Shown here: positions 4,816-49,476 of the stretch, piece by piece
Layout: every line of letters begins with the position of its first letter
Position numbering within the stretch: position 1 is the stretch's first letter
NCBI GenBank assembly: GCA_022641095.1
Contig: JALCDB010000007.1
Location: 1-64,000 of the forward strand
Reading direction: 5' to 3'
Source of the DNA: Bacilli bacterium
GTDB lineage: Bacteria; Bacillota_I; Bacilli_A; RFN20; CAG-826
DNA: 64,000 nt
Notes under the pieces: model-generated
Told to the model about the DNA's origin: nothing
The model's database searches: none
The model's input: the letters and a program-made list of their open reading frames with translations, nothing else
Program-made: the position numbers and the translations under genes

Positions 4816-5259
4816 CTACTTTTCCTCTTTCTCCAACAGTTCTTTCAAAGCGGTCCAACCCATGGTCGCGCAATGGATGCGGGCGGCTTGCTTTCCGGTG
4901 TTGAGGAAAACGATGGCCTCATCAAGCACGGAAGCGTCATATTCTTTTTCCCCGATCATGTTGAGATACTGCTCAATCACGTACTGAGCTTCCTTGAAAG
5001 TCATCCCGATGACGCGATCGCAAAGAATATCGGTCGAAGCGGATGAGATCGTGCATGCGACGCCCTCCCAGCGGGCGTCGGCGATCTTGCCATCCTTAGC
5101 CAAGAGATACACATCGAAATCGTCGATGCAGTTCGTGCTGGAGGCGTGAAGCGAAAGATAACCGCTTTCCGTCGGTTTGCTCTTATGGCGCGGATTCTGG
5201 TAATGGTCCATGATGATTTCCCTCATCATTTGGGGAGTGACTTCAATTGAAGTAGGCAT
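4816..5259 (-). CDS. sufU: Fe-S scaffold/sulfurtransferase SufU
   Basis: [32 protein letters not shown] Cys region; start chosen at MPTSIEV inside the longer ORF. Confidence 0.92.
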
Positions 5260-6475
5260 CGAGAAACTCCTTTCCGTGCTTGAGGGCGTCAACCAAGGCG
5301 TCAATGTCCTCTTTGGTAGTGTAGAAATAGAAACTGGCGCGGACCGTGGCGACCACTTTTAGGTAGTCGATCAGGATTTTCGCGCAATGCTGGCCGCTTC
5401 GACAGGCGATGCCGCGGCTATTAAGAAACGTGGCGGCGTCTTGAGCGAAGACGTCTTTGATGTTGAAAGTGACGATACCGGCTTCCGATTTGGCGTTGTA
5501 AATGATCGAATTCCCGGTTTTCTCAAGTTCCGAGACCGCATATCGTTTGAGTTCTTCCTCGTATTCGTTGATGTTCTTGAGACCGATTTTCATTATGTAA
5601 TCGACGGCCGCCTTCAAGCCAAGGATGCCTTCGATGTTTTGGGTTCCGGCCTCGAATTTGACCGGCGGCTCCAAATAGGCGACGTCGCCGCACATATCGA
5701 ACTTGGCGTTCATTCCCCCGCCCGTCATGAACGGATCCATTCTCTTGAGCAGATCGAATTTGCCATAGAGAACGCCAATCCCCGTCGGACCGCATAGTTT
5801 GTGGCCGCTGAAAGAAAGGAAATCGCAATCAAGATCCTGAACGTCGGTAGGCAAATGCGGCACGCTTTGGGCGCCATCGAGAACCAATAGGGCTCCATGG
5901 GCATGCGCGACTTTGGCGAGCTCCTTCGCCGGGGCGATGTAGCCTAACACATTCGTCACATGGGCGATGGCGACGATTTTCGTGCGCTCCGTGATAACCT
6001 GCTTCAAATTGTCCACGGTGAGGCGCCCATCTTTGTCGAGCGGAATGAATTTTATGACCGCTCCCGTCATCTCGCTGACCTTGTACCAAGGCAAAACATT
6101 CGATGCGTGCTCCGCTTGCGTCAAGAGAATCTCATCGCCTTTCTTAAGGTACTTAACCCCCCAGCCGAAAGCGACAAGGTTGATCGAGGCGGTCGTCCCG
6201 GAAGTGAAAACCACCTCCTGCGGTTGGCAATTTATCAGTTTGGCCACCGATTGCCGAGAAGCCAAAATCCGCTCATCGATCTGATAGCAAAGATCGTAGT
6301 CGCCCCGATGGCTGTTTGAGGTCTCAGATCGATAGTACGCGCTGACCGCGTCCAAAACGCAGTCGGGTTTGAAAGTCGTGGAGGCGTTATCAAGCCACAC
6401 AAGGGGTTTGCCTTGCATTTTGATGCCGTTCCGGAACATTGGGAAATCTTTGCGAACCTCATACGGATTGATCAT
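5243..6475 (-). CDS. sufS: cysteine desulfurase SufS
   Basis: PLVWLDNASTTFKP; SFSGHKLCGPTGIGVLYGK PLP lysine; RSGQHCAKI catalytic Cys loop. Confidence 0.96.
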   Translation of the reverse strand: MINPYEVRKDFPMFRNGIKMQGKPLVWLDNASTTFKPDCVLDAVSAYYRSETSNSHRGDYDLCYQIDERILASRQSVAKLINCQPQEVVFTSGTTASINLVAFGWGVKYLKKGDEILLTQAEHASNVLPWYKVSEMTGAVIKFIPLDKDGRLTVDNLKQVITERTKIVAIAHVTNVLGYIAPAKELAKVAHAHGALLVLDGAQSVPHLPTDVQDLDCDFLSFSGHKLCGPTGIGVLYGKFDLLKRMDPFMTGGGMNAKFDMCGDVAYLEPPVKFEAGTQNIEGILGLKAAVDYIMKIGLKNINEYEEELKRYAVSELEKTGNSIIYNAKSEAGIVTFNIKDVFAQDAATFLNSRGIACRSGQHCAKILIDYLKVVATVRASFYFYTTKEDIDALVDALKHGKEFLDAYFN

Positions 6476-8182: not shown

Positions 8183-10273
8183 ATGAAAAAATCAAACTGT
8201 GCGCTCGGATTGATGGCGCTGCTCACTGCAGCGGTAGGCTTATCGGCCTGCAACACGCCTGCGACAGACAACAACGGTAACATCTTCACGTACACGGATG
8301 CCGCCGGAAACGTCGTTGGTTACAACGCCACTGATCTATATGACAGTTACCAAACTACTGGTTCGTCGCTGTCAACAGAGTTCGACAAAGTCTACGAAGT
8401 CCTGATCAGGCACTATTACGATAAAGGCGACGCAACCACGCTTGAGTCCCTTAAGAAAGCCTCTCGCAAGGACGTCGAAACCGACAAAGCGACCGCAACC
8501 GACAACGCCAAGACCAATAACACTTCCTTCCAAGAGGAATTCGAAAAGATCCTATCCAAGCACAACGTCAAGAACGTTGACGAGCTTTTCGAATACTACC
8601 TCTATACCGAAGAGAAGAGCAAATTCGAGTCCAATTTCTACAGCAACTACATCGATGCCATGAAAGATGGCGCGACCGCTGCTAACGGCGGGCTCAGCAC
8701 CGATGACAACGATAAGTTGTTCATGCCGAAAAACGATGATACCTATGGCATCGGAAACGCCGGCTGGGTCAAAGAGCAAATGCCTTACGTAATCCGCCAT
8801 ATTTTGGTGAAAGTCGCCGCCAGCGACAAGGAATACACCCAAGGCACGCTTACCGAGGACAAGACTTCGGGAACCGATACCACCCACCAAGCGACCAAAC
8901 TCGCCACCGTCGTGGCTCGTCTTGCGGGAGCCAGTTTGGCCAGCGACGGAACCTTGACATCCTACAGCGACGACACCCGCCCGAACTTCGGCAATTTGGC
9001 TTATGCCCTCAGCGAAGACGCCAGCAGCGCCGAGGCTTATGGCGAAACCAGCCTGATGACGAAAGTCATGTCGAACAACCTCGTTCCCGAATTCAAATTG
9101 GGCATTTACGCCTATGAGTCCCTTTTCAACAAAAGGGAGCAGACCACCGCTTATGGGGCGAAAAACGTCTACCGCGTGGCCCCGGGTCTTAAAGAATCGG
9201 CCACTTCCCTAGCCGACGTCGATTCGACCCAATCCCTTGAAGACGGGTCGCTTGTCTCAAGCGCGAACGTGTACGGCGAAACCTATGACGATGGTTCCTC
9301 CACCGGCATCGGCCAAATCCCCTTCGGCGCCGCGGTCGCCCTTATGAAAGCCGCCACGATCGAAACCGATAGCGCCAATTTGCCGGTCTACGAAGGCAAC
9401 AGCGCTTTCTACCCGCGCAACATCATCTTCAACAAATATTTCAACAAACGCAACGTCTGCGTCATCACGCCGAACGACATTCCTTATAACCTTACAAATA
9501 ACGACACCTACACTGGAGAAACCTTCGACGGGACCCCTTCAACCGCTTACGAGGCCCTTCCGGGCTTCCAAGTCAACACGACCGACGTCCTTCCGGGCTT
9601 TGCCCATAACGTCCTCACCGACAGCGAGGGACAGATCATTTTGGTCGCCCGCGCCGGAACATCCAGTTACCAAGGCGTCCATTTCATGGTCATCCAACGC
9701 GACGCGCTGAGCCAATACGACACGACGTTCGACAGCGCCGCCAAAAAGGTGAATGAGAACAACAGCGCCGTCGACGGCACCGCGACCCTCAGTCAGTACT
9801 ACACCACGAAAATCCCAGGACTTTCCGGATATCCGACGACTTCTACCGGCGAAGCCCTTACGACCTACGTCAACTACAACCGCAATACCACCACGGACTA
9901 CAACGATCGCTCCGGCGACATCGTTAGCGGGGTCAAATCCTACAATGGCGCGCTTAGCACTTATCTCTTTGAGAAACTCATCGGCGGCCTTGACGGAGTC
10001 GGCAGCCTAACTTTCCAGGATTCCGATTTCAAAGCCACCATCCTGAACTATTGCAAACAAAAGAGGCAAAGCACCAAAGACGACAGTTTCACCACTTGGT
10101 CAAACGATTGGAAATCCTATGCCGAGATGCTTCAGGCCCAAAACGAGGCTCGCGATCTCCGTGACGCCAACGGCAATGGGCGCCTTATCAGCGAAGTTTG
10201 TGCCATCGGTTACCAGAATCATTCTTCGTCCGAGTGGCAAAAGGGAGGAGCTTGCTATTATGTCAAAGGCTAA
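8183..10273 (+). CDS. large secreted lipoprotein with possible PrsA-like foldase region
   Basis: Signal + lipobox (LMALLTAAVGLSAC); SD aaggagga at ~8162-8170; VIRHILVKV ... FGNLAYALSEDAS resembles a PpiC/PrsA-type pattern. Confidence 0.8.
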   Translation: MKKSNCALGLMALLTAAVGLSACNTPATDNNGNIFTYTDAAGNVVGYNATDLYDSYQTTGSSLSTEFDKVYEVLIRHYYDKGDATTLESLKKASRKDVETDKATATDNAKTNNTSFQEEFEKILSKHNVKNVDELFEYYLYTEEKSKFESNFYSNYIDAMKDGATAANGGLSTDDNDKLFMPKNDDTYGIGNAGWVKEQMPYVIRHILVKVAASDKEYTQGTLTEDKTSGTDTTHQATKLATVVARLAGASLASDGTLTSYSDDTRPNFGNLAYALSEDASSAEAYGETSLMTKVMSNNLVPEFKLGIYAYESLFNKREQTTAYGAKNVYRVAPGLKESATSLADVDSTQSLEDGSLVSSANVYGETYDDGSSTGIGQIPFGAAVALMKAATIETDSANLPVYEGNSAFYPRNIIFNKYFNKRNVCVITPNDIPYNLTNNDTYTGETFDGTPSTAYEALPGFQVNTTDVLPGFAHNVLTDSEGQIILVARAGTSSYQGVHFMVIQRDALSQYDTTFDSAAKKVNENNSAVDGTATLSQYYTTKIPGLSGYPTTSTGEALTTYVNYNRNTTTDYNDRSGDIVSGVKSYNGALSTYLFEKLIGGLDGVGSLTFQDSDFKATILNYCKQKRQSTKDDSFTTWSNDWKSYAEMLQAQNEARDLRDANGNGRLISEVCAIGYQNHSSSEWQKGGACYYVKG

Positions 10274-12651: not shown

Positions 12652-13596
12652 TCAGTCGTCCTTCGAATAGAGAGGCTTATAGAAATAGTGCCCATCCATC
12701 GTGAAGATTTTCCCCGTCCATTCGCCCGGCTTAACGGGGGCGTAAGCCTTGTCGAGGATGTTCATTTTGGCATCCATGTCATCGATCATCGAGAGGACGA
12801 GGGCCTCCCGGGTCTCGGGGGGAACCGGCGAGCCGAAATCCGGTTGGTTATGGTGCGAAAGGACCATGTGCTCCATGATGAGCGGGATTTCTCCGCTCAT
12901 GCCAAGTTCCTTGGCCGCGATACGGACTTCCGCCTGCATGATGGATATGTGGCCCAATAGTTTCCCTTCAAGCGTGAACTGGGTCGCCACGGGCCCGGAA
13001 AGCTCGATAGTCTTGCCCAAGTCGTGGATAAGCGCGCCCGCCACCAAGACATCGCGGTTGAGCGTGGGATAGAGCTTGCAAACCATCTCCGCATGGTCCG
13101 CCATGCAAAGCGAGTGGTAGAGAAGCCCGCTCGCGAACGCATGATGGTTATGCACCGCGGCGGGATAAGTCACGTAACTGTCGTGGAACTTGTCGATCAA
13201 ATGCTCAGTGAGTCTCTTGACGTCCCCGTTCTTTAAGGAATCGACATACGCGTTCAGTTTCTTCTCAAGCTCTTCCCTAGGAACTGGGGCCGAAGGAACG
13301 AAACGAGTGAAATCGATATTGTCCTGATCCACGTGGGAGCCGGAGAAAATCTTCATCTGCAAGGAACCCCGATAGGCGTTAACCTCGGCCGAGATCATGA
13401 CGATTTGCCCCGGCACGAAGAGGTCGGCGTCGCCCTCTTCGATGTCCCATTTTTTGCCCAGCATCGTTCCCGAAGCGTCTTGCAGGTTGACGTTCAGGTA
13501 GTTTCGCGATTGGGAGGTGACCCCTTTATCCACCGTGACGACGAGATAAGGGGCCGTCACTTTGTCGCCATCTTTGAGTTCCGCGATATTGTTCAT
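12652..13596 (-). CDS. yhaM: 3'-5' exoribonuclease YhaM (OB + HD domain)
   Basis: N-terminal OB-like region then HNHHAFASGLLYHSLCMADHAEMV ... LIHDLGKTIEL HD motifs. Confidence 0.9.
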   Translation of the reverse strand: MNNIAELKDGDKVTAPYLVVTVDKGVTSQSRNYLNVNLQDASGTMLGKKWDIEEGDADLFVPGQIVMISAEVNAYRGSLQMKIFSGSHVDQDNIDFTRFVPSAPVPREELEKKLNAYVDSLKNGDVKRLTEHLIDKFHDSYVTYPAAVHNHHAFASGLLYHSLCMADHAEMVCKLYPTLNRDVLVAGALIHDLGKTIELSGPVATQFTLEGKLLGHISIMQAEVRIAAKELGMSGEIPLIMEHMVLSHHNQPDFGSPVPPETREALVLSMIDDMDAKMNILDKAYAPVKPGEWTGKIFTMDGHYFYKPLYSKDD

Positions 13597-33008: not shown

Positions 33009-33392
33009 TCAAGAATGATTATATCCTCCTTGCAACGCATATGAAATGGAACGACCGTCAAAAAAGAGAATTGGCCCGCGATGATTATCGGCAAGAAAAA
33101 AGGCAATCCAATTTGCGTCACTTCTGCTTTTCGCGTACAAAGCCGTTCCGCCGCGGAGGCGCGGAAGGGAACCCCCGAAAAGGCGAATGTAATCCAAAAA
33201 ATGAAACCATGCCTTTGTTTCTACGTCATGCCCCCTCGCCCGACAGGCGATCCTTGCCGCGGCCACCTCGGTGTAGATTCCCGTCGTCGAGAGGCTGGCG
33301 TGGCCGAGGAGCTCCTGAACTGAACGGGTCTTTTCAACCGCTCCTTTTAAAAACGCCGAATCGGTATTGAAAAAAGCGAGGTTTATGAACAT
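33009..33392 (-). pseudogene. C-terminal remnant of a tyrosine recombinase/integrase
   Basis: KGAVEKTRSVQELLGHASLSTTGIYTEVAAARI (33251-33347) matches the XerC/D-type VQELLGHASLSTTxIYT tail; catalytic N-terminal part absent. Confidence 0.7.
33074..33100 (+). repeat. 27-bp direct repeat, copy 1
   Basis: gcccgcgatgattatcggcaagaaaaa identical to 40946-40972. Confidence 0.9.
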
Positions 33393-39532: not shown

Positions 39533-40084
39533 GATTCGCGGCGGAGCGTCGCAGGCCCAATTCTGAGAGAAAACATTCGAGGCCTTCCATTGCCAAATTA
39601 TTCAAACTCACTTCTAACATTTATAGGTGTTTCCGTGCAATATTCAATATGATTAACTCAAATAGTGCTCGTGATTGCCAGTTTTTTGCCACCTTCTGTT
39701 TGTTCAAAAACGGGTCAAATATCTTCTTCTCGGCTTCTTTCCTTGTTTTGATCGCATCCTCTTTTTTGAGAATCCAAAAGTAGAAATACCTTTTCTGTCA
39801 AAAAGTGATGTCGGCTCTCCATTTATTCCTTTTTGTATAGCAAACAACACCACTTACTCCGGTCGTCGAATCGCAGCAAACGATCTCTCAGGCTTTATCA
39901 TCCCGATCATGGTATGTTCGCGATATCCCATCGCCCATTCGTTGCTGTGCGCCCCCTTGATGTCCGAATACCTGGCACATCCGCAGAAATAAAGGCGCCT
40001 CGACACCTCGTTCCCGGTCAGAATAAACTCCTTCCCTCAACCGCATCAGCATAGGTAATAGACCGGAGATCGGCCCCGGCCATC

Positions 40085-40505
40085 CCTTTTTTTGGGTCTC
40101 GTCCGCAGTTTAGGAGATTTATTCGACGACTCTCGACTTTTTCGGAGACTCAATTTCCCTAACTGAAGAGTTCCTAAGTCCATCGCGTCTGGCAATTCCG
40201 CCAACCGGATGTTCCATTTTGCCAGAATGACAAGGTATCGATTCCGCTTTGGGAAAACATCGTCGAGATATTATGCTGACGGTAAAAATAATAGGCAAGA
40301 AGAGGCGTAAGGGAAAGAAAAACCGAAGCGCGCAAAAGATCCGGTTTTTTGTAAATATGGTGCAACTTCAACCGTTTTTAAAAGAAAAAAGCCTTTCTTG
40401 GCGGGGCCTTCCAAAAGACGAAACCGAATCAACGAAGACTATTCGGATCAATATTACCCATTTCGCCAATTTTTATGTTATAGCCGCGCATTCCCGAAAC
40501 AAACG
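40085..40505. repeat. degenerate ~420-bp repeat copy B containing a tRNA-Leu-like 5'-half
   Basis: Aligns by eye with 45195-45615, including CCGGTTGGCGGAATTG[G/C]CAGACGCGATGGACTTAGGA and AAACTGCGGACGAG. Confidence 0.75.
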
Positions 40506-40945
40506 TGTGACTTTACGAGAACGCCGAAATGCTTTTCGCCGAAAGCGTCGAGAACAAAGTCCTGTTTATCAACGGCGAGGTCGTCAAAAAAAGGCGACCG
40601 CATCATTTTTTCAAAGAATCGCGAAACGATCAACATCGAAAGCATCTCGACAAAACAAAATGAGCAAATGGCTTGACCGTCCATTGTCTCCGAATGCAAT
40701 TATCTGATCAGAAAACTTTCGCTTCTTATTAGGGATGTTGAAAATTGCAGGATGCAAATGCCACATTCTTTTTTCCCCCCCGCCAACGCAATAGCAATAT
40801 GATGACGCATCGCCACTTCCCTTAACCTAACGACTTGTTCGTTTTTTATATAAGCGAATATGGGCACCGCTAAACAGGGCTGCGATAGCTCTTTGCCAAA
40901 ACACTGATTCGCTATTTTGTTCCTTTCCAATCGACGTCATTATTC

Positions 40946-40972
40946 GCCCGCGATGATTATCGGCAAGAAAAA
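40946..40972 (+). repeat. 27-bp direct repeat, copy 2
   Basis: gcccgcgatgattatcggcaagaaaaa identical to 33074-33100. Confidence 0.9.
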
Positions 40973-41088
40973 GGCGGCCTCTTAACCATTAGGCTTCCGC
41001 CGCAAGGAAGGACCTGACGATTGGCTTATTTTCTTATTAACAACGAAAAAATAACACGAATCCCGCGATAAATTCGAGTTTTATTCTC

Positions 41089-42363
41089 TCACTTCTCATC
41101 CATAGCCCAATCAAGAACAAGGTCCGACGTTTTGGCTAAGATCTCATTGGTCAATCTTTCATCGCTGTGCGTCCCAAAAAACGAGGAAGTCATGGTTAAA
41201 TCATCGGAGAAAGTCGAGATGGACAGTTGAAACGACGGCGCTTTCTTGACGGCGGTCGAAATAAAGGCCTTCTCGGGTTTCGCCGATCCGAACGAAATCG
41301 CGTCTTTTTCGATGATTCCAAGATTTGAATAGGAAACGATCGGAGCGGGGGCGATTTTCGATACAAGATTAATAGCAAACGAAGAAGGATGAAGCAAACC
41401 GAAAGCCAACGAAAGCAGAAAAGGGCCCCTATAAGAGTCCAGCGATCCTTTTTGTTTGGCGAAAGACGAATGGACTCTTTGAAGGACCTGAGAAAACGAA
41501 GAACCGGCTTCGATCCTTTCGTCGAAGAAGAAAACGCCGGTGAGGTTCGAAAAGGCTGGCGAAGGCCGTTTGGGGAGTTCTTTCACGAAGCTGACCGGAC
41601 AGGAAAACGAGATGGATTCCCGCTCGCTATAGAAAGACAGGGCAAAGGCGTATGCGGTCATGACGATATCGTTGATCGTCACATCGTCTTCCTTCGCCTT
41701 TGCCTTAACACTGAGAAAACGTCCGGACGAAATGGTTTTGGATGCGATAAACGGCCTTTTGTCCCCCTTTTCCGAAAAGGGCAAAGGAATGTTCTGCTTG
41801 GGTGGCTTCCGCGCCGGAGACAAAAGCGATAACCGTTCCCGAAGACTGAGCGTTTTTAGCACAGGCCGAAACGAACGGTCCAACGAATAATCGCCAAAGG
41901 GCTTCTTTTCATTGCGATGGCGTAAAACAAAATCGTAGGATTCGGCCACGAGATAGACATAACGTTTTAACGCCATCCCGTCGAAGGCAAGATGGCTGAC
42001 GAGAAAGCAAAGAGAGTCCTTTTCGCCTTCTTGGATAAGGAAAACTTTTAGAGGCGACTCGTTTTCGAAGCTGATGTCGGAAAGAATGGTTTCGTCCATC
42101 GCAGCGGATCCACTAACTATTTTGACGATTTCTCTGGAGGAAAAGTTCTTTTGAACCCAACGATTCTTCGTTAGGGAAAAAACGCAGGAGAGCAGCGGCG
42201 CTTCTTCTATTGATAAATCAACGGCCTCCTCCAACGCTTTTGGCTCGATTTTCCCATCGAATGAAACAAAGAATCTAATCAAAGGGCGGTGACTCCGCAT
42301 ATAAACGACTTGAAGTTTTTCGGTCGGCGTGGCCCGATATATTTTTGGTGCCATGGAAACCAT
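41089..42363 (-). CDS. stand-alone condensation/acyltransferase-like protein
   Basis: FLVSHLAFDGMALKRYVYLVAESYDFVL resembles the HHxxxDG motif (SHLAFDG); MTAYAFALSFYSERESISFSCPVSF; ~420 aa. Confidence 0.65.
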   Translation of the reverse strand: MVSMAPKIYRATPTEKLQVVYMRSHRPLIRFFVSFDGKIEPKALEEAVDLSIEEAPLLSCVFSLTKNRWVQKNFSSREIVKIVSGSAAMDETILSDISFENESPLKVFLIQEGEKDSLCFLVSHLAFDGMALKRYVYLVAESYDFVLRHRNEKKPFGDYSLDRSFRPVLKTLSLRERLSLLSPARKPPKQNIPLPFSEKGDKRPFIASKTISSGRFLSVKAKAKEDDVTINDIVMTAYAFALSFYSERESISFSCPVSFVKELPKRPSPAFSNLTGVFFFDERIEAGSSFSQVLQRVHSSFAKQKGSLDSYRGPFLLSLAFGLLHPSSFAINLVSKIAPAPIVSYSNLGIIEKDAISFGSAKPEKAFISTAVKKAPSFQLSISTFSDDLTMTSSFFGTHSDERLTNEILAKTSDLVLDWAMDEK

Positions 42364-42586
42364 AATACAGGCCTTTTATGGGTGAAAAACGCAATTCGTG
42401 GTTTACGTTGCCGTTAAATTGGGCGGAACGAATATCGATTATTTGACGACATTGTCTGAGTTAAAGCGATTAGCATCGAAAACCCCACAGTCATGATCGT
42501 TGGAACGCTCCGCTTTTTTCTCAAACCTTTTTGATCACTATCTCCGCCTCCGTATATCGAATGAGGCTATTTGGTGACTCAAGGTT

Positions 42587-43120
42587 CTATCCCCTGAGCA
42601 GAAAAGTGATCGCATCGCACTTCTTTCCGCCGACCGAGAGGAAGCCCCTCTTCCTGACGGACTCCTTGAATCCGAGTTTTTTGATGACCTTAAGCATCGG
42701 AACGTTCTTGGACCATGTTTGGATGAAGAACGACATATGTCCTTTCCCTTTGAGGTATTCGAGGAAAAGCGAGAGGGCCTTCGTCCCGAAGCCCTTGCCG
42801 CGAGCGTCTATGTCAGGTATATCTATCCCCACCGCGATTATATGATCGGGATTATCGGAATAATCGAGATCGTAATAGGAGCTCACCCAGCCAATGTGCC
42901 TTCCGTTGGCCTCGATCTCGAACTTCCATCTCTCCATGTCGTCATTCAGTGATTTGACCGAGGAAAAATATTCCATCCAGGACCTTCTTTCCTTAATGGG
43001 GTCTCCTTCGATTTTCCCCTCCCATGGGGCATCCCACTTTTCGCTCCATTCGGTCTCGGAAGTAAACCATCTGACGTAATCGTCGACGTCGCTTTCCCTC
43101 ATGTCCCTCAAAATAACCAT
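42587..43120 (-). CDS. GNAT-family acetyltransferase
   Basis: VGIDIPDIDARGKGFGTKALSLFLEYL; NVPMLKVIKKLGFKE. Confidence 0.88.
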   Translation of the reverse strand: MVILRDMRESDVDDYVRWFTSETEWSEKWDAPWEGKIEGDPIKERRSWMEYFSSVKSLNDDMERWKFEIEANGRHIGWVSSYYDLDYSDNPDHIIAVGIDIPDIDARGKGFGTKALSLFLEYLKGKGHMSFFIQTWSKNVPMLKVIKKLGFKESVRKRGFLSVGGKKCDAITFLLRG

Positions 43121-43451
43121 TTTTTTATTATATATCGTTGTTTTATCGGTAAAATGGAAATCTCATAATGTTTTTACGCCAGTTCATCAGAACGAATCAC
43201 GCTCTTCGCAAAGATAACCAAGCGCCTTTAATTTCAATCAAAGCCATAAAAAGCGACGCGGCAATCGATTTTCTCCTTCGTTTTCGCGACAATGGGGTCT
43301 TAACGTAGATGGAGGAAAAAGACTATGAACGCATCCGAAGGCTTTTGTTTTTTGATGCTTATTCAAGTTGTTGGACATGGTTGGCTCAAATCCGTTCGTA
43401 GACAACGAACAAGAGCGAGACAATTACGAAAATAGCTGGAAAACGGGGTCT

Positions 43452-44492
43452 TCAATTGGTGTAGTAGCCCGTTATTGTCTGATTGCTGCCTTTGCTCAAT
43501 TCCAGGAGCGTTGGCTTCATGAGACTGACTTCTTTCCCGCCTGCCGCCAAAAACACGAAATGCGAGCACAAGACATAATTCTTATATCGGATCATGTTCA
43601 TCGGATCGTAGCCGCAGATGACGCCGTCGGTCTTGACTAGTTCTTTCGCATTGCTGATGAAATTCTCTATCGAGGCTTTCTTTTTGGCTAGATCCTCTGA
43701 CACCAATTCCTTGATCGAATCGTGATCGATGGCAAGACAAGGCAAGGGGGTCGTTTGGCTTTCGGCGATTTCGTAGAACGTTTTCTCGCCAAAATCATGG
43801 AAGTCGATGCCGTTTTTTTCATAAACGACCAAAAGCAACGCGCCGAGGTAATAGGACATTCTTCTGATATCGATTTGCAAGGGAGAGACTTCCTTAATGA
43901 GGGCGCAGTACTTTCGAAGCCTTTGTTCGTATTTGGCCTTTGAGAGTTGTTGTAACGCCATAGTGCCGGCGTATTCGGCCCCGCCCTCAATCGTCTCCAC
44001 ATCGTATTCCTGGTTGATGATGTCGCCTATCGTCTTTTTTCGCTCTTTTCTTAGCGAGATCAATTTCCCAAGATCGGAGTAACTGCCATTTGAGACCATC
44101 TCAGAAACCAAAACGTTCTCATTGTATTTGGCATTGATCCCTTCGTATGTCGTTGGCGAGGCAAGCAAGTCCAAATCCGAAGGAAACCTCTTCTCATTGT
44201 TCTCAAACTGGAAGCAATGGAACGCTTCATGAACGAGGTTGGCGGCGAGAACGTCGAAATCCCCATCGAAGCCTTTCCCCTCGACACTCCAAATGAAAAT
44301 CTTCCTTCCTCCGTATTCGATGAAGGTGTTGGCGAAGAACTCCTTAGGCCTTCTCGTTCTCTCCCCATCGATGATCGCCTCGTTCTCATCGTAGAGCGAA
44401 AAGGGATATAGCTTAAAGCCAGGCCACACTCTTCCGTAGTCTATCTTGGCCAACTTTTTCAAGACACCACTGTACACTTCCGCCAAATCCAT
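43452..44492 (-). CDS. predicted soluble zinc metallopeptidase (HExxH)
   Basis: AANLVHEAFHCFQFENNEKRFP HExxH followed downstream by TIEGGAEYAG candidate third ligand. Confidence 0.6.
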   Translation of the reverse strand: MDLAEVYSGVLKKLAKIDYGRVWPGFKLYPFSLYDENEAIIDGERTRRPKEFFANTFIEYGGRKIFIWSVEGKGFDGDFDVLAANLVHEAFHCFQFENNEKRFPSDLDLLASPTTYEGINAKYNENVLVSEMVSNGSYSDLGKLISLRKERKKTIGDIINQEYDVETIEGGAEYAGTMALQQLSKAKYEQRLRKYCALIKEVSPLQIDIRRMSYYLGALLLVVYEKNGIDFHDFGEKTFYEIAESQTTPLPCLAIDHDSIKELVSEDLAKKKASIENFISNAKELVKTDGVICGYDPMNMIRYKNYVLCSHFVFLAAGGKEVSLMKPTLLELSKGSNQTITGYYTN

Positions 44493-44833
44493 GATTACGA
44501 CTCCTATGAAAACCGATTATTATGCAGATAAACAAATGATGCACCTTTATTTTCGATATTAACTAAAAAGAGTCGCTTTTTCAAAACGTCCCTCAAAAAC
44601 GGGTTTTCCAAGTGATGGATCGTCAAATCGCAAGGGCCGCATTCAAAAAGAAGAGGGCTTCTGCTTTCTTTGGCATTCAATACAAGAACCAAAACGAGAC
44701 ACAATGCCGAACGAACCGCTAGGGTGTATAAAATCCAATTAGGTATTTTTATATACTTTTTACCTAGTAAAGATTTTTGAAATAAGAAAAACTGATTGCC
44801 GTTGCGCCAATGGCGTTTTTCTAGCTTATATAA

Positions 44834-44874
44834 GAAAAGCCCCCGAGCATTCCCCTTTTACGGGACTCGGAGGC
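44834..44874 (-). terminator. intrinsic terminator after tRNA-Leu
   Basis: minus-strand GCCTCCGAG...CTCGGGGGCTTTTCTTAT. Confidence 0.7.
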
Positions 44875-44885
44875 CATAACTCAAA

Positions 44886-44973
44886 TGGTGCACTGAACAG
44901 GAATCGAACCTGCACGGGATCGCTCCCAATGGATCCTAAGTCCATCGCGTATACCTAATTCCGCCATCAGTGC
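44886..44973 (-). tRNA. tRNA-Leu(TAG)
   Basis: GCACTGA acceptor, anticodon loop CTTAGGA, long variable arm, GGTTCGATTCC T-arm, encoded CCA. Confidence 0.95.
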
Positions 44974-45194
44974 GAATTTCTTCGATTGGCACTGGTGTTT
45001 TTCCAGTTCCAATTCGGACATTTAGCAAGACCTTCAGCCTTAAGGTTGTCCGCACCTTTTCTCGTCTCTCGGCTCGGTCCGCAGCGAACCAAACGGAACG
45101 CAGCGGAACCACGTACCAGCATAGCGCCTTCCCGCCCGCATCTTTAGGGGATTCGTTGGGTTTCCGAGGCAAATTCTTAGGATTTGGCCTTCGT

Positions 45195-45615
45195 CCGCAC
45201 CATTCCTCGTCCGCAGTTTCACGGATAGTCCCGACGGCTATCGGTTTTCCCGAAGGCTCAATCCCCCTAATTGAAGAGGTCCTAAGTCCATCGCGTCTGC
45301 CAATTCCGCCAACCGGACATTCCGTTTTCGTTAGAATGACAAGACGTTATTTTCGTTTTTTGGAAAACGTCATAGCGACATCAAACTAGCGGTAGAAATT
45401 ATAGGCTAGAAGAGACGCAAGGAAAAGAAAAAGGCGAACTGAACGAAATCATCAAAACGCTTTGCGACTGTAAAATGTCCCAAGACTCTTTTGAAAAACG
45501 AAAGCACTGCTTTATGAAACATAGAAGACGAAACCCGATTAATGAAGACTAGACGAAACAACGCCGCCTAAACATACAAAAAAACCTGATTATTATCACA
45601 CGCGCCCGAAAACGG
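45195..45615. repeat. degenerate ~420-bp repeat copy A containing a tRNA-Leu-like 5'-half
   Basis: See 40085-40505; minus strand GTCCGGTTGGCGGAATTGGCAGACGCGATGGACTTAGGACCTCTTCAATTAGGGGGATTGAG. Confidence 0.75.
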
Positions 45616-49296: not shown

Positions 49297-49436
49297 ACGC
49301 TAACGCCACTGCGGCGTTCTGAAAACCGCTTTTGCTCGATCTTATCGAAGAAACGGAGAACTACGAGGGCGAGACAAACGCTCCACCGCATGGTTCAATA
49401 GATACGGGGCGATCGCCGAAAACGAGGAAACGACAA

Positions 49437-49476
49437 GAGAAAGGAGGAAGCCGAGGCCTCCTCCTTTCTCTTTCAA
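49437..49476 (+). terminator. intrinsic terminator
   Basis: GAGAAAGGAGGA...TCCTCCTTTCTCTTTC, 12-bp stem. Confidence 0.75.

Follow-up and report, generated by a model that had tools for sequence, protein, structure and literature searches.

Displaced tRNA-Leu 5' halves in a Bacilli genome are probable left ends of an integrative element that supplies its own tRNA

We analyzed a stretch of 64,000 nucleotides (nts) from a Bacilli bacterium (contig JALCDB010000007.1 of assembly GCA_022641095.1), called the window below; the genome to which it belongs is G000. In it, a first-pass annotation had noticed two diverged copies, A and B, of a tRNA-Leu 5' half followed by a conserved tail. A and B are, with high probability, left attachment junctions (attL) of an integrative element that targets the anticodon loop of tRNA-Leu(UAG) and whose own tRNA replaces the host gene. 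What was observed, across several genomes, is a set of precise junctions, a filled and an empty site, both displaced halves of the target gene, a complete tRNA, and a full conjugative element of the same design. The tail, called X, is the left arm of the element's attachment site (attP) and not part of a tRNA-like RNA.

Copies A (40098-40322) and B (45206-45432), both on the minus strand, are 76% identical over 227 nt (E ~1e-39), and each contains a tRNA-Leu 5' half ending in CTTAGGA, as had been annotated. The best-kept segment is the 5' half (41 of 45 positions identical), followed by the tail, which is indeed kept in both copies (53 of 75; baseline, 45%), and the upstream flank (62% versus 48% for shuffled sequence); there is no similarity past the tail (47% identity). 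In copy B, the half is followed 306 nt downstream, on the same strand, by a complete tRNA-Leu(UAG), which the first-pass annotation overlooked together with a decayed AP2-domain gene next to copy A (Table 1). The tRNA counts for G000 (1.59 Mb in 15 contigs, 89% complete) come from pattern searches; a search for CTTAGGA followed by a T-arm found no second tRNA-Leu(UAG). Other CTTAGGA matches in this genome, on contigs C1, C4, and C8, had no surrounding tRNA and resembled rRNA or coding sequence. In copy A, the sequence runs from the first repeat of the arm directly into the AP2 pseudogene with no tRNA between them, and therefore a deletion removed the tRNA. Copy A is a decayed deletion derivative of the element, joined to the AP2 pseudogene; the G000 element is itself decayed, with X and the tRNA retained in copy B.

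The same arrangement spans relatives of two families. In two genomes of the same genus (G015, RUG14006, and G016, RUG13722, both publicly labeled uncultured Erysipelotrichaceae), in Candidatus Alloenteromonas pullistercoris (G039), and in RUG11704 (same order, other family), the order is a tRNA-Leu(UAG) 5' half, X (230 to 320 nt), a complete tRNA-Leu(UAG), a terminator-like hairpin, and an AP2-domain gene. Conservation lies on the side of the junction after CTTAGGA, and the sequence before it varies between loci. When RUG11704 is compared to G016, X is 97% identical, the 5' half is 73% identical, and the flank is at the random level (47%), which therefore indicates an insertion junction and recent horizontal transfer. 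G052 has the left part of the arrangement in tandem (native 5' half, X, 5' half of an element tRNA, second X): there, a second element inserted into the first element's tRNA.

One rival explanation needs no mobile element: a tRNA-Leu region underwent plain segmental duplication and then decayed, which would account for the upstream flank, half, and tail that A and B have in common. But the junction between half and X recurs, amid unrelated flanks, in other genera and in a second family, and a matching right end carries the other half. Because the junctions are common to other genomes, duplication is excluded as the sole cause, and we give it almost no credence as the whole explanation; it still explains the common flank. 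Since A and B share flank, half, and tail, an extra duplication of this segment in G000 is probably needed in addition to the element. We also observed that the dead 5' halves of A and B are better kept than the flank or tail (62 to 71%), though neither can make a tRNA; this could reflect gene conversion with the intact tRNA or retention as an integration target.

Comparison of empty and filled sites placed the bacterial attachment site (attB) within the host tRNA gene; the shared core is short (ACTTAGGA or ACTCAAAA) and lies at the anticodon loop. On contig C22 of G015 there is an intact native tRNA-Leu(UAG). Over its upstream flank and 5' half, it matches the split G016 locus (78% over ~353 nt), and the alignment breaks off immediately after CTTAGGA. 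The displaced halves can also be rejoined. Those of G039 (5' half on contig C25, 3' half on contig C15) make a perfect tRNA-Leu(UAG), with every pair formed in the acceptor (7/7) and in the anticodon stem (5/5). For G016, joining the 5' half to the most distant 3' half of its contig gives 6/7 and 5/5 pairs; because this 3' half reads ATTAGGA, one loop-core base was supplied by the 5' side. In both genomes the acceptor stem of the complete tRNA differs from that of the rejoined host tRNA, and therefore the complete tRNA arrived with the element. The tRNA that the element carries is of the same isotype as its target: five genomes have tRNA-Leu(UAG), and a further one, G008, has tRNA-Leu(CAA).

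Several displaced 3' halves each were found in G016, G002, and G008. Those of tRNA-Leu(UAG) lie at positions 4905 and 6272 of locus L069 and 13379 of L028 (G016 contig C9) and at 5692 and 13046 of L072 (G002 contig C31), and behind some of them come a hairpin terminator and an AP2-type gene. In G002, the half at 13046 and the 3' half of the intact native tRNA have the same sequence.

The displaced 3' halves that sit beside an intact tRNA in G002 and G036 would fit a classical tRNA-targeting island, in which the element carries just a tRNA fragment, the host gene is restored with it at one junction, and the halves are no more than the usual displaced pieces. However, in G000, G015, G016, RUG11704, G039, and G008 the displaced piece is the 5' half, and in these six a complete tRNA with another acceptor stem lies about 230 to 320 nt inside the element. 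Although attL was seen alone in G000, G015, and RUG11704, both displaced halves were found and rejoined in G039 and G008; the rejoined tRNA is unlike the complete one, a functional tRNA is rebuilt at neither junction, and no attP fragment restores the target gene as it does in Islander-type islands. The classical scheme is thus disfavored for the main loci, and we consider it improbable as the general account.

The element in G008, a genome of the same genus, is complete. On its contig C1, a tRNA-Leu(CAA) 5' half (C1:156698) is followed by ~300 nt, a complete tRNA-Leu(CAA), and the AP2 gene, and the 3' half lies at C1:123141, so that 33.6 kb separate two displaced halves that rejoin to tRNA-Leu(CAA) with 6/7 acceptor pairs. 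This DNA encodes a Tn916-type tyrosine integrase (domains Phage_int_SAM_3 and Phage_integrase) with an excisionase-like HTH_17 gene as its neighbor, a MobL relaxase, a type IV coupling protein, a VirB4-like ATPase, and an ArdC-like gene. Because integrase, relaxase, and type IV secretion genes lie between two attachment sites, C1:123141-156698 is an integrative conjugative element (ICE). It does not answer to a temperate phage, given its relaxase, coupling protein, and VirB4-like ATPase; X was absent from the viral contigs searched, in which relatives of the AP2 protein were distant only. In RUG11704, an integrase 56% identical to that of G008 is encoded ~2 kb past the AP2 gene and adjoins a PvuRts1I-like modification-dependent restriction gene with an SRA domain (L117, 770-1666), possibly a defense cargo. 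A relative of the integrase in G115 had no tRNA-Leu half nearby. On G008 contig C1 (locus L190), three tRNA-Leu(CAA) 3' halves follow one another at 8794, 10473, and 11114, which suggests repeated insertions into one target.

The left arm contains short repeats. TGCGGAC has an offset of exactly 71 nt from the core in each of the eight left ends, though the sequence in between has diverged. The repeats of copy B are offset from the core by 71, 87, 146, 203, and 232 nt, and relatives with a long X have further TGCGGAC copies at about 88, 147, 203, and 231 nt. Of the nine TGCGGAC copies in the window, four fall within 170 bp, an event with a chance probability of ~1e-5. On the other side of the element, GTCCGCA repeats with a spacing of mostly 11 bp stand ahead of the displaced 3' halves in G016, G002, G036, and G039, at 126 to 170 nt from the core. 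G008 uses a different word, GAGTGGAA/TTCCACTC; the 36.9 kb examined contain five exact copies, each of them within one of the two arms. Element-specific repeats on both arms are expected of integrase arm-type sites, and the repeats resemble those bound by lambda-like integrases; judged by sequence, they are putative binding sites.

Table 1. Features of copies A and B in the window (all on the minus strand)
Feature	Position	Strand	Basis or remark
Copy B, displaced tRNA-Leu(UAG) 5' half, acceptor to anticodon loop; last letters are the crossover core CTTAGGA	45280..45318	-	Relatives have other tRNA-Leu 5' halves at the same place
X of copy B, element left arm, 306 nt, from core to element-borne tRNA	44974..45279	-	Conserved in G015, G016, RUG11704, G039, G052
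Five TGCGGAC/TGCGGGC repeats, proposed integrase arm-type sites	45048..45215	-	Offsets matched in relatives; clustering
Individual repeats	45215-45209, 45199-45193, 45140-45134 (one change), 45083-45077, 45054-45048	-	
Complete tRNA-Leu(UAG), CCA encoded, proposed element-borne replacement	44886..44973	-	ARAGORN, Rfam, genome pattern search
Terminator-like hairpin and T-run after the tRNA	44834..44876	-	Read from sequence and alignment; counterparts in G015, G016, RUG11704, G039
Copy B upstream flank, TATAAT box 78 nt ahead of the 5' half	45319..45615	-	
Copy A, second displaced tRNA-Leu 5' half; last letters CTTAGGA	40172..40210	-	
Copy A remnant of left arm X, stops after first TGCGGAC (40107-40101)	40097..40171	-	
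Copy A upstream flank, homologous to copy B flank	40211..40505	-	62% versus 48% shuffled
Decayed zinc-ribbon/AP2-domain gene, frameshift and stops; in intact relatives, the gene following the tRNA	39684..40078	-	tblastn with protein P0001, combined E 4e-17

The first-pass annotation had offered three readings of half and tail together: a tRNA-like RNA, an interrupted tRNA, or a decaying tRNA pseudogene family. A structured noncoding or tRNA-like RNA would be in keeping with a tail that is kept between the copies and across species, and with the spacing of exactly 71 nt between core and TGCGGAC at eight loci. But no relevant Rfam family matched at the gathering score, and no relevant or convincing match appeared at a relaxed threshold; conservation of X runs beyond the end of the proposed RNA up to the next tRNA; and loci with 97% identical tails have different 5' halves. 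The stems quoted in the annotation do occur in the sequences, with the copy labels swapped (UUCAAU/AUUGAG and GAUAG/CUAUC belong to the 45-kb copy), but they do not carry over to the homologs as a conserved structure. Registers of the first hairpin differ (paired columns sum to 48 in six relatives and to 42 in A and B), and covariation is weak: double-sided changes in the first register are within the range of shuffled alignments, and in the second register the helix forms in only 56% of cells. For a gapless alignment of 80 columns, RNAalifold gave a weak structure (-3.6 kcal/mol) with an unfavorable covariation term. The supposed closing pair of CGGAC with GUCCG is a coincidence, since TGCGGAC stands at 71 nt in 8/8 loci whatever the acceptor sequence, including that of G015 (GCACTAG), which cannot pair. 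With no conserved fold, no relevant Rfam match, and a tail that contains integrase-arm-like repeats, we regard an RNA as very unlikely.

Of the other two suggestions, the interrupted tRNA was essentially right. A tRNA-Leu gene is interrupted, by a mobile element and not by an intron; a group I intron was rejected, since no 3' exon closes the tail and the tRNA after it is complete. The halves are indeed decaying tRNA pseudogenes, a description that misses the reason for their existence. The first-pass annotation had named a lack of further homologs as grounds for refuting its reading; homologs exist, and they identify the element.

In the mechanism that we propose, a tyrosine integrase would carry out recombination between attP and the host tRNA gene at a core that both contain (~8 to 11 bp, ACTTAGGA). 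Integration would split the host gene, leaving its 5' half at the left end and its 3' half at the right end, with the tRNA unrestored at the junction. The element's complete tRNA-Leu, 150 to 310 nt inside the left end, would then take over from the host gene. The TGCGGAC repeats in X would seat the arm-binding domain of the integrase, which presumably acts on them. Scanned for sigma-70-like promoters, four loci had sites upstream of the 5' half and none within X on the element strand. On this strand of the loci scanned, no terminator separated the 5' half from the element tRNA. Therefore, read-through from the captured host promoter to the element tRNA is plausible. The G000 bacterium seems to depend on the element's copy of tRNA-Leu(UAG).

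A broader scenario is possible, and we put it forward tentatively. In a conjugative lineage of Bacillota, tRNA-dependent integration would serve as a stability device: the captured promoter would drive a transcript of 5' half, X, element tRNA, and terminator; the host's only tRNA-Leu(UAG) would be replaced; later elements would hit the replacement; and dependence would outlast decay of the element, for which the window would be a case.

Several points weigh against the interpretation of A and B as junctions of a tRNA-supplying element. Every locus comes from a metagenome assembly, and the two halves of G039 sit on separate contigs. In the window, the right end is missing: there is no tRNA-Leu 3' half besides that of the complete tRNA, and none was found in the genome by pattern search. 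Most copies lack an integrase: none was found in the G000 element, the G016 C9 array, or the G002 C31 array, and one of the G008 type is rare, occurring in 2 of 224 genomes of the family. The intact tRNA of G002 and that of G036 appear to be composed of the native 5' half and another 3' half, a pattern that may reflect classical restoration or later recombination; some events could have followed the restoring scheme. Finally, that the element tRNA is expressed, is needed, and keeps the cell alive is something that we infer.

The closest known system is tRNA-dependent lysogeny, described for actinobacteriophages Fionnbharth, Cluster L, Gaia, and others (Guerrero-Bustamante and Hatfull 2024, PMC10865867). 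In these phages the core is short, the tRNA is not rebuilt, and the cognate phage tRNA was shown experimentally to be required (PMC10865867). The elements described here are like them in having a tyrosine integrase (seen in G008 and RUG11704), a core of ~8 to 11 bp at the anticodon loop, a host tRNA left unrestored at attL and attR (the right junction), a tRNA of the same isotype on the element, and arm-type repeats flanking the core. They differ in host (Bacillota) and in kind, the single complete one being conjugative and the rest decayed islands. Their rescue tRNA lies directly inside the left junction, after the captured 5' half and before the AP2 gene, and second insertions into it occur. 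Dependence was proved by experiment for the phages, whereas here we infer it. The same paper asks whether the mechanism exists outside actinobacteriophages, its candidate being one Lactobacillus prophage, Lj965 of Lactobacillus johnsonii, whose integration does not rebuild the tRNA and which carries a cognate tRNA (PMC10865867). Lj965 thus shares with our elements a Bacillota host, an unrestored target, and a cognate tRNA, but it is a phage.

In Islander-type islands of the anticodon-loop class, an attP fragment restores the gene, and displaced 5' fragments are a minority (159 of 3919) (PMC4383910). These islands have a tyrosine integrase, as do the elements of G008 and RUG11704, and resemble the elements described here in a crossover in the anticodon loop, a displaced fragment that marks the end, and known tandem arrays (PMC4383910), but the elements described here supply a whole separate tRNA gene. 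With Tn916-type ICEs the G008 element shares its integrase domains, the excisionase-like HTH_17 neighbor, and relaxase and secretion genes. Tn916 itself is not known to be tRNA-specific or to carry a rescue tRNA. In the literature, which we covered incompletely, we found no account of this design for a conjugative element.

The gene that follows the element tRNA encodes a small protein with a zinc ribbon and an AP2 domain (P0001, L028:13505-14089, and its relatives). It resembles the DNA-binding parts of phage HNH endonucleases and had no HNH match in Pfam; it is possibly an accessory factor or a relic of a homing endonuclease.

Three other observations concern the window. About 7 kb beyond copy A and on the same strand, the N-terminal part (33258-33329) of an open frame (33009-33392, minus strand) resembles the C terminus of tyrosine recombinases (LLGHASLSTTGIYTE). 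Against PF00589 the frame scored 20 bits, below the cutoff; it may be what is left of the element's integrase, or it may be unrelated. A 31-bp direct repeat (30/31 identical) occurs near this remnant (33070-33100) and upstream of copy A (40942-40972). At 49435-49472 there is an imperfect palindrome (38 bp, 89%).

If our interpretation is true, tRNA halves that annotation pipelines omit or miscall receive an explanation. They also become searchable, as the signature of a tRNA 5' half followed after 150 to 310 nt by a complete tRNA with the same anticodon. tRNA-dependent integration would extend from actinobacteriophages to conjugative elements of Bacillota, and its evolutionary endpoint would be a host whose only leucine-tRNA gene of one kind is the relic of a mobile element.

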